From Bacteroidota bacterium (GTDB taxonomy: Bacteria > Bacteroidota > Bacteroidia > Chitinophagales > UBA10324), in NCBI GenBank assembly GCA_018267315.1, contig JAFDYS010000020.1, positions 1-64,000 of the forward strand: 64,000 bases of DNA. The letters are read 5' to 3'. Positions 49,385 through 53,165 of this stretch are shown here, piece after piece (the stretch's first letter is position 1; the number at the start of each line of letters is the position of its first letter). The notes beneath the pieces were generated by a model. The model did not search any database and was not told the origin of the DNA. It saw only the letters and a program-made list of their open reading frames with translations. A program made the position numbers and the translations under genes.

Positions 49385-49458
49385 ATGAAGACTGCTATCA
49401 ATATTCCATCTCTCTCTCTTTCTCTCTCTCTCTATCTCTTTCTTTCTCCCTTCTTCCC
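49385..49458 (+). repeat. CT-rich microsatellite holding an out-of-frame signal-peptide start
   Basis: An ATG at 49385 begins a 27-codon frame (MKTAINIPSLS...) through a TC/CT repeat (about 49408-49450) and ends at a TGA overlapping the next start. It is 74 bases before the ATG at 49459, so it is out of frame by two. Removing one TC unit would join it in frame to the downstream secreted protein and complete its signal peptide. It may be a phase-variable switch or an assembly error. Confidence 0.7.
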
Positions 49459-51351
49459 ATGCTTCTGACAAGTGTTCTATCGTATGCGCAAACCTGCGAG
49501 GCTTGTTATGTAGATGAAAACTGGACATTCTCGGCGGACAATGATGAGTTGGATGATGAGTTTTGGGAAGTTGAGCATGTTGATACGGATAACGACGATG
49601 TAAAAGATGCTTTTGCCGTGGTAGGAGGAACCCAGTTTAGCGGAGGGGCAGGGAGACAGGGTGTGCTTTATTTATTGAGCGAAGCGGGGAGCATAGTGTC
49701 AGGTTATCCAAAATATTTTGGCTCAAGCGGAAGCGATATCTTTTATGCGGTGGAGCAGGCCACCAATGGCAATCTCATCATTTGCGGAGCAAAGGAATCA
49801 AGCAATGTCGGAGGTACAAACAGCGACAATGTCTGGTTTGTCGAATTTGATTTGGGTTCTGCTTCTGCTGTAGTTCAAAGGGAATATGGCGGAACAGGAA
49901 ATGAATGGGGCTTTGATATTAAGGAAGCCCCCACCGGCTTGTATGTGATGGTGGCGAAGTCGGGCAAAAATGAAGATGAGGATCTCGCCGACAATGATAT
50001 AAACGCAAAAGGCGAGTACTGGATCCTCGACATTGACCCTGACACCTATCAGATCAACTGGGACGAAACGTACAGCGGGACATATACGGGTGTCAGCGGC
50101 CTCTACTATGATATGGCGACCAGTCTGGTGATTGATGGCAACGGCCATTACATGGTGGCCGGGCATTGTAAATCATGCGATCCGGATAAGATATATGATG
50201 AGGTGATGATTGTTAATATTGATCCTTCCGACTATTCTGCAACTACTGATGATATTTTCGGTTATGAAGGTCACGACCAGATTTCATGGGACTTAATTCA
50301 AACGGAAGATGATGGATTTTTTTCGGCCGGAGTGACCCATCCCAACATACCACCAGGATGTTTCGATGAGAATGAGCATGATGGCTATCTATTCATAACC
50401 GATGATGAATTGACCAACATCTGGACCGGAGGATGCCAACTCGACGAGGGTTTGGGGTTCGGCGGCTCGTATGCCGACAATTTTTACAGCGCAGCAGAGT
50501 TGCCTGATGGAAGTTTTCTTTTTGCCGGGGAAACCAAATCTGACAACTACGATGTCACCTGCAATCACAACGACCCCGATACCTACTCCGATGCCTGGCT
50601 TATGAAAGTAAACGAAGATGGTGAATGGCAGTGGTCTGAATCCTTTGGTGCTGAGTTTAATGATTACTGGCGCAGTATCAAACGATTGGAAGATGGATCG
50701 TTTATAATGGCGAGCTCGAAAGGTGCCGATGACTTACTACAGAATCAAAACTATTACGTCATAAAATTTCAGCTTGCCGATTGCGAGCCACCGGAGAATT
50801 TAGATGTTGTTGACGTTGACGGATGCGAAGCCATTCTTGCGTGGGAGATGGAAGATTGTGTTCCCGATTACAAACTAAAAGTGCGAAAGTCCACTTCGTC
50901 AACATGGTTTTTAATTGATGATGAAGCCACAAGTCCATACACATTTGAAGGAGACCCCGGCTTCAGCTATCAGTGGAGGGTAGAGGCGCTTTGCTCTCCG
51001 GATGAAACAAGCAACCACACCAACGGAGATCCATTCTCTTTAACCACCTGTAACCCTAAGATTGGAATTAATGACAGCAATGAAACAGGAAGCTTGACTA
51101 AAATTTATCCCAATCCTTCAAATGGCTCATCTGAGATAGCTATTCCTGATTCAAAAGAACAGGATCAAACGGTAACGATCGAAAAGATAAATCATCTGGG
51201 CAAGGTTGAGGTTGTTTCTTCTGTGCCCTTACTTGCCGGCCTGATCCAATTTTCACTACCTAATTCTGACTTATCTGCCGGCATCTATCTGGTAAGAGTA
51301 ATTACCGACAGCAAAGTCTATCAAGCGAAGCTCGCACTTACTCGCTTTTAA
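49459..51351 (+). CDS. Secreted protein with FN3-like and T9SS type A domains (start possibly phase-variable)
   Basis: A 630-residue exported protein as it stands, starting MLLTSVLSYAQTC. The first 11 residues (LLTSVLSYAQ) are only the tail of a signal peptide; the missing front (MKTAINIPSLS) lies upstream in another frame, across a CT repeat. The body (about 60-430) has propeller-like repeats (DIFYAVEQATNGNLIICG, NFYSAAELPDGSFLFAG). An FN3-like domain (about 435-530) and a type A tail (IYPNPSNGSSEIAIP to AKLALTRF) follow. Without the upstream start it would be poorly exported. Confidence 0.8.
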   Translation: MLLTSVLSYAQTCEACYVDENWTFSADNDELDDEFWEVEHVDTDNDDVKDAFAVVGGTQFSGGAGRQGVLYLLSEAGSIVSGYPKYFGSSGSDIFYAVEQATNGNLIICGAKESSNVGGTNSDNVWFVEFDLGSASAVVQREYGGTGNEWGFDIKEAPTGLYVMVAKSGKNEDEDLADNDINAKGEYWILDIDPDTYQINWDETYSGTYTGVSGLYYDMATSLVIDGNGHYMVAGHCKSCDPDKIYDEVMIVNIDPSDYSATTDDIFGYEGHDQISWDLIQTEDDGFFSAGVTHPNIPPGCFDENEHDGYLFITDDELTNIWTGGCQLDEGLGFGGSYADNFYSAAELPDGSFLFAGETKSDNYDVTCNHNDPDTYSDAWLMKVNEDGEWQWSESFGAEFNDYWRSIKRLEDGSFIMASSKGADDLLQNQNYYVIKFQLADCEPPENLDVVDVDGCEAILAWEMEDCVPDYKLKVRKSTSSTWFLIDDEATSPYTFEGDPGFSYQWRVEALCSPDETSNHTNGDPFSLTTCNPKIGINDSNETGSLTKIYPNPSNGSSEIAIPDSKEQDQTVTIEKINHLGKVEVVSSVPLLAGLIQFSLPNSDLSAGIYLVRVITDSKVYQAKLALTRF

Positions 51352-52878: not shown

Positions 52879-53165
52879 ATGAAAAATCATCTTGTTCAAT
52901 TTTCAATGCTTCTCTCCTGTTGTGCAGGCAACTTGCAGGCACAGATCGGTTCAGAATTCGAAACCGACAGCCTCACACCAAACACACTTATTGCATCATC
53001 TTTCATAAACGACAACGAAGGATGGCTGGCCGACCATGGCACTTCACACGCGATGAATCCAACACCGAGTTCATCCCCGATTGGGGCATTTACTAAGTGC
53101 TTGATGGAGCTAACGACATGTATCTAGTGGGCAGGCACGGCTACGTGACGAAGTGGAAACAGTAA
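52879..53165 (+). pseudogene. Remnant of a T9SS/YCF48-type secreted protein gene
   Basis: The frame at 52879 codes for a signal peptide (MKNHLVQFSMLLSCCAG, NLQAQ), a short propeller-like stretch (SFINDNEGWLADHG) and then stops at 53127. In another frame the 3' part reads VLDGANDMYLVGRHGYVTKWKQ and stops at 53165, a typical blade ending of YCF48-like proteins. The gene looks shortened by an internal deletion and frameshifted; no T9SS tail remains. It lies 12 bases after the Kelch gene. Expression of the 82-residue fragment is not excluded. Confidence 0.6.

Follow-up and report, generated by a model that had tools for sequence, protein, structure and literature searches.

The window, the whole 64,000-nt stretch of DNA that was analysed, carries a secreted-protein gene that is probably a contingency (phase-variation) gene, currently OFF and switched by slipped-strand mispairing at a CT/TC tract in its signal-peptide coding region. 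The source genome is a draft of an environmental Bacteroidota (72 contigs, 85% complete). A slipped-strand contingency design was the core of the original prediction, and much of it stands: a paralogue, a sister-family genome and further secreted proteins of the order and class show it too, mostly OFF and with intact bodies, and one tested pair of OFF genes is under purifying selection. The part that stands less well is the window tract itself, which is short (13 nt) and interrupted. The comparison makes chance or simple error an unlikely general explanation. On balance, CT repeats in signal-peptide cores seem to form a recurrent Bacteroidota phase-variation system, of an origin unrelated to those of Helicobacter and Neisseria. 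Such a system would randomly switch individual T9SS cargo proteins and lipoproteins, among them propeller proteins and proteases that are M12B-like or subtilisin-like, and most of its loci would be at rest in the OFF phase in the sequenced populations.

The CT/TC tract and its gene in the window

The features of the locus are as follows.

49385..49468, + strand: short open reading frame from the natural start, consisting of the signal-peptide n-region (MKTAINIPS) and the repeat, stopped by TGA (OFF frame; from the sequence and the unit-change table)
49409..49433, + strand: TC/CT dinucleotide tract with perfect runs at 49409-49419 (11 nt) and 49421-49433 (13 nt), one T between them
49434..49458, + strand: an A, then an irregular all-pyrimidine extension of the tract (TCTCTTTCTTTCTCCCTTCTTCCC)
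49459..51351, + strand: secreted-protein body, 630 codons, intact, starting inside the signal-peptide tail (LLTSVLSYAQ)
49567..50718, + strand: probable beta-propeller region (tentative; based on structural matches and on beta-hairpins in series in a model of low confidence)
51103..51333, + strand: type A T9SS C-terminal sorting domain (PF18962 / TIGR04183; Pfam and NCBIfam)

The forward strand from 49385 to 49468 reads ATG AAG ACT GCT ATC AAT ATT CCA TCT CTC TCT CTT TCT CTC TCT CTC TAT CTC TTT CTT TCT CCC TTC TTC CCA TGC TTC TGA, and its translation, MKTAINIPSLSLSLSLYLFLSPFFPCF, stops at the TGA at 49466-49468. The start lies 74 nt from ATG 49459, where the intact body frame opens and runs to 51351. 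The coordinates and the arithmetic of the original prediction, a signal-peptide front ending in TGA with its ATG 74 bases before the next, are right, and the unit-change table agrees with its claim that one TC unit fewer would make a continuous signal peptide running into the mature protein. With one unit removed, ATG 49385 reads straight through into the body and the signal peptide looks good; the same holds with two units added; and 0, +1 and -2 units lead to early stops. The product with one unit fewer begins MKTAINIPSLSLSLSLSLSFSLLPMLLTSVLSYAQTCEAC; as read from the sequence, its n-region is basic, its core consists of Leu and Ser, and it has a plausible region for cleavage. The nearest 5' stop in the body frame is the TAA immediately before ATG 49385, and no ATG, GTG or TTG was found in that frame between this TAA and 49459. 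The body would have an N-terminal Sec signal peptide only with the repeat one unit shorter or two units longer. The coding stretch from ATG 49385 to the body thus contains a simple sequence repeat whose unit length is not divisible by 3; a change in unit number either opens the full-length frame or brings an early stop; and the repeat lies within the signal-peptide coding region of a putative surface protein, as in genes of the oipA/opa type.

In the proposed mechanism the CT/TC tract would encode the hydrophobic core of the signal peptide. Since a CT repeat encodes Leu-Ser whichever frame is read, the core would tolerate any number of units while the downstream frame shifts. Unit numbers that join ATG 49385 to the body would allow the protein to be produced, to leave through Sec and to be sorted by the T9SS; either of the remaining frames would end translation within about 45 codons, with no export. 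The assembled window allele would be OFF by one unit. The mechanism presumes a useful rate of slippage at the tract in the source organism and a working signal peptide in the long joined frame. The repeat had been predicted to switch a surface protein between exported and not exported. Because the OFF frame stops after 27 codons, OFF would instead mean "not made", with at most a leaderless cytoplasmic product.

The tract consists of TCTCTCTCTCT (49409-49419), a T, TCTCTCTCTCTCT (49421-49433), an A and then TCTCTTTCTTTCTCCCTTCTTCCC, and its longest perfect run is 13 nt, or 6.5 units. A TC/CT tract is present where one had been described, at about 49408-49450, and is interrupted and less regular than that description. 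It shares the top score among the tandem arrays of the window and is the window's sole near-pure pyrimidine run of at least 30 nt. When the encoded peptide is taken into account together with the local codon usage, in which TCT makes up only 12% of Ser codons, the length of the CT run has P=0.0026 and the dinucleotide periodicity has P=5e-5. In pattern searches of the 3.6-Mb genome (CT)6 occurs once and (CT)5 at three loci, two of which are signal peptides of the paralogue family of the window gene. The window tract is beyond chance.

Its length is borderline for slippage. Published cut-offs for dinucleotide repeats are 6 units in a Campylobacter phasome study (PMC6321876) and 8 units in a Neisseria study (PMC5953494). 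The window tract has 6.5 perfect units, its paralogue on contig G000:C22 has 5.5 and most relatives have 8-19. The first two are at or below the cut-offs, so their slippage may be slow, and the window locus may represent either slow switching or decay.

The C-terminal sorting domain is above both curated cut-offs (39.5 bits against 27 in Pfam, 36.6 against 23 in NCBIfam), which upholds the assignment to T9SS cargo. It was the only Pfam or NCBIfam match of the window protein above cut-off, and there was no homology to the Hop or Opa families. The structure model shows beta-hairpins in series and matches CylK and the PLL/PHL propeller lectins best. Its mean pLDDT is 49.6, so these fold matches only hint that the body is probably a beta-propeller; the protein may be an adhesin or lectin-like factor. 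The host has a T9SS as judged from one component, PorZ (NF052228, 573 bits against 260), which is encoded two genes upstream of the window gene, with recX between them. A promoter scan gave nothing above chance. Elsewhere in the window, at 52879-53127, a short ORF of 82 codons with a signal-peptide-like start (MKNHLVQFSMLLSCCAGNLQAQ) lies just 3' of a kelch/Fn3 T9SS cargo gene and is possibly a truncated cargo gene.

CT tracts in the protein family, the order and the class

Besides the window gene, its genome encodes about ten members of the same protein family, and Chitinophagales bacterium CAN_BIN04, a sister-family MAG, has several. Most paralogues in the same genome have ordinary, in-frame, full MK... 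signal peptides that align to the same point. The paralogue on G000:C22 carries ATGAAACGCG(CT)5C right after its start, an 11-nt CT run, and is OFF; one added unit brings it in frame as MKRALSLSACWIMYVLATTTARSQSC. Four family members in CAN_BIN04 have CT runs in the signal peptide, three of them ON, with (CT)11, (CT)11 and (CT)6, and one OFF, with (CT)8, so that one position in one family shows differing repeat numbers and both phases. A comparison of homologous loci in related genomes had been proposed as a check; the CAN_BIN04 members, on contigs 42, 213, 228 and 401, have CT runs of differing length and in both phases, mostly longer than those of the source genome. A contig scan gave three loci, all in CAN_BIN04, and no sister-strain allele of the window gene. 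With one genome per species, repeat-number variation was seen between genes and between species.

The order was surveyed for ATGAA followed by (CT)7 within 33 nt in 398 genomes, and the class for a similar pattern in 395 genomes; additional loci came from a listing of all CT tracts in seven genomes. The total is 18 clear signal-peptide CT tracts, 15 OFF and 3 ON. Beyond the source genome and CAN_BIN04, the OFF loci are in G039, G296, G139 (three), G202, G051, G356 (two), G621, G594 and G697. Among the proteins they encode are M12B-like metalloproteases, an S74-containing protein, lipoprotein-like sequences and subtilases, of which one ends in a T9SS tail. A nineteenth locus, in G222, is ambiguous, with one ATG in frame and another not, and stands outside the 18. 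A mirror search for GA tracts of the same design picked up CT loci read from the opposite strand and no independent locus. When CT tracts of at least 8 units were listed without regard to genes in the 398 order genomes, about 23 loci were obtained, 11 of them in coding-strand signal-peptide ends; against an expectation of about 0.5%, the estimated share of such ends in searchable sequence, the binomial probability is ~6e-20, and at an expectation of 2% it is 2e-13.

Other tracts were examined and rejected as signal peptides. These are G230, G394, G139:C39, G202:C58, G459, G016, G104, G027, three in G004 (C108, C138 and C554) and G000:C72; a minisatellite in G392; tracts inside a gene (G038) and at a contig edge (G153); a probable contaminant in G308; and a repeat element in G002. 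In the last genome, 13-23 CT units on contigs C29, C48 and C95 (L154, L158 and L161) are followed by similar sequence (ACATTGACG or ACATTGATG) and no clear gene, and look like a dispersed repeat element. The CT tract on G308:C293 (L148) adjoins a reverse-transcriptase-like ORF of eukaryotic look and is probably contamination of that assembly.

Two further arrangements were noted. On the minus strand of G139:C164 (L111), adjacent metalloprotease-like genes at 5250-5221 and 2766-2741 have 15 and 13 units and different bodies. Their leaders are identical as far as the contig edge, over at least 36 nt upstream together with ATGAATAAGATAAAGA and the CT tract, and the ending of the contig at the leader suggests more copies. 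In two genera, secreted proteins that look similar by eye, at G139:C181 (L117, 248-285) and G222:C30 (L151, 1347-1324), have signal-peptide CT tracts of 19 and 12 units.

Phase, selection and alternative explanations

If phase were random, two thirds of loci would be expected OFF, and at least 15 of 18 OFF has P=0.10. All 14 loci outside CAN_BIN04 are OFF, the window gene and its paralogue included, which is above random phase (P=0.003); selection for the OFF phase in the sampled populations is possible. Selection on the proteins could be read in orthologous metalloprotease genes of G139:C164 and G202:C41, which are 74% identical, have 15 and 9 repeats and are both OFF. They differ at 49% of third positions, 18% of first and 14% of second positions, with dN 0.16-0.17, dS 1.1-2.7 and dN/dS ~0.06-0.14. 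These OFF orthologues, a single pair that does not include the window gene, are under strong purifying selection, and such constraint is not expected of permanently OFF genes.

The best surviving alternative to present-day switching is a former contingency locus now fixed OFF, a young pseudogene among intact paralogues whose interrupted tract permits too little slippage. The shortness of the tract and its breaks at a T and an A are in keeping with this, as is the number of related paralogues with ordinary signal peptides, since with about ten of them in the genome the loss of one would be tolerable. It is nevertheless unlikely: the 630-codon body is free of stops and its sorting domain is intact, the OFF orthologue pair in relatives is strongly constrained, and two members of one genome that are OFF at CT runs suit switching better than two independent losses.

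An assembly or sequencing error, in which the true allele would be one unit shorter and the gene stably in frame, is improbable. Repeats are error-prone and the genome is a draft, but any read spans runs of 11-13 nt, and the long genes of the window, which is 93% coding, show no further obvious frameshift. Across the many assemblies surveyed, 15 of 18 loci OFF would arise from stable genes with a probability of ~2e-17 at 5% error per locus.

Recoding is more doubtful still. If the frame were restored by slippage of the ribosome or of transcription on the CT tract, expression from unchanged DNA would be low and constant, which would suit both the lack of any ON locus among the 14 outside CAN_BIN04 and the purifying selection on one orthologue pair. 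The offsets of the OFF loci are mixed, with 10 of one kind and 5 of the other, and three loci are in frame; the direction is not conserved, there is no fixed recoding signal, and recoding at a fixed offset was rejected. CT repeats are not known as a slippery motif, and slippage during transcription generally requires homopolymers. That there is no switch at all, with translation truly starting at ATG 49459 and neither the CT tract nor the ATG before it playing a part, is hardly credible: this ATG is in frame and is followed by a plausible cleavage region (LLTSVLSYAQ), but its leader would be only 11 residues long and without a basic n-region, most paralogues have full MK... signal peptides, and the joined frame supplies the missing n- and h-regions from upstream sequence. 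Slipped-strand switching of the window gene is thus the preferred explanation.

Relation to known phase-variation systems

The mechanism of slippage is already known; its use on Bacteroidota T9SS cargo was not found described in the open-access literature. The search, which covered open-access papers only and is weak evidence, returned no description of repeat-driven switching of such cargo in the phylum.

In Helicobacter pylori, the part of oipA (and of babA and sabA) that encodes the signal peptide contains CT repeats, the frame shifts through slipped-strand mispairing, and the outer-surface protein is produced only in the ON frame (PMC10564699). The loci described here likewise have CT dinucleotide repeats in signal-peptide coding regions. 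They differ from oipA in encoding unrelated proteins in another phylum, namely cargo with T9SS sorting domains or lipoprotein-like signals, proteases included; their switching is deduced from sequence, and the tracts in the source genome are short. The opa genes of Neisseria form a multicopy family with a CTCTT pyrimidine repeat in the leader-peptide coding sequence, whose number sets the frame (PMC3745409). A pyrimidine repeat in the leader coding sequence, a frame set by repeat number and a multicopy family are shared with the loci described here, whereas the repeat is a dinucleotide rather than the opa pentamer, the products are T9SS cargo rather than Opa outer-membrane barrels, and the sequences are unrelated. 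The window locus would accordingly be a functional counterpart of oipA and opa, and not a homolog.

Phase variation in Bacteroidota is known mainly as DNA inversion. Should the proposed system be real, single-gene on/off switching by slippage would not be confined to host-adapted pathogens, and clonal environmental populations would have mixed secretomes. As the assembled allele is usually OFF, automatic annotation would hide such genes or assign them wrong starts. Within the phylum, the capsule and SusC/SusD genes of Bacteroides fragilis vary in phase by DNA inversion (reviewed in PMC11868660). Those systems and the one proposed here both place surface components under stochastic switching; the former act by site-specific recombination, the latter would act by repeat slippage.
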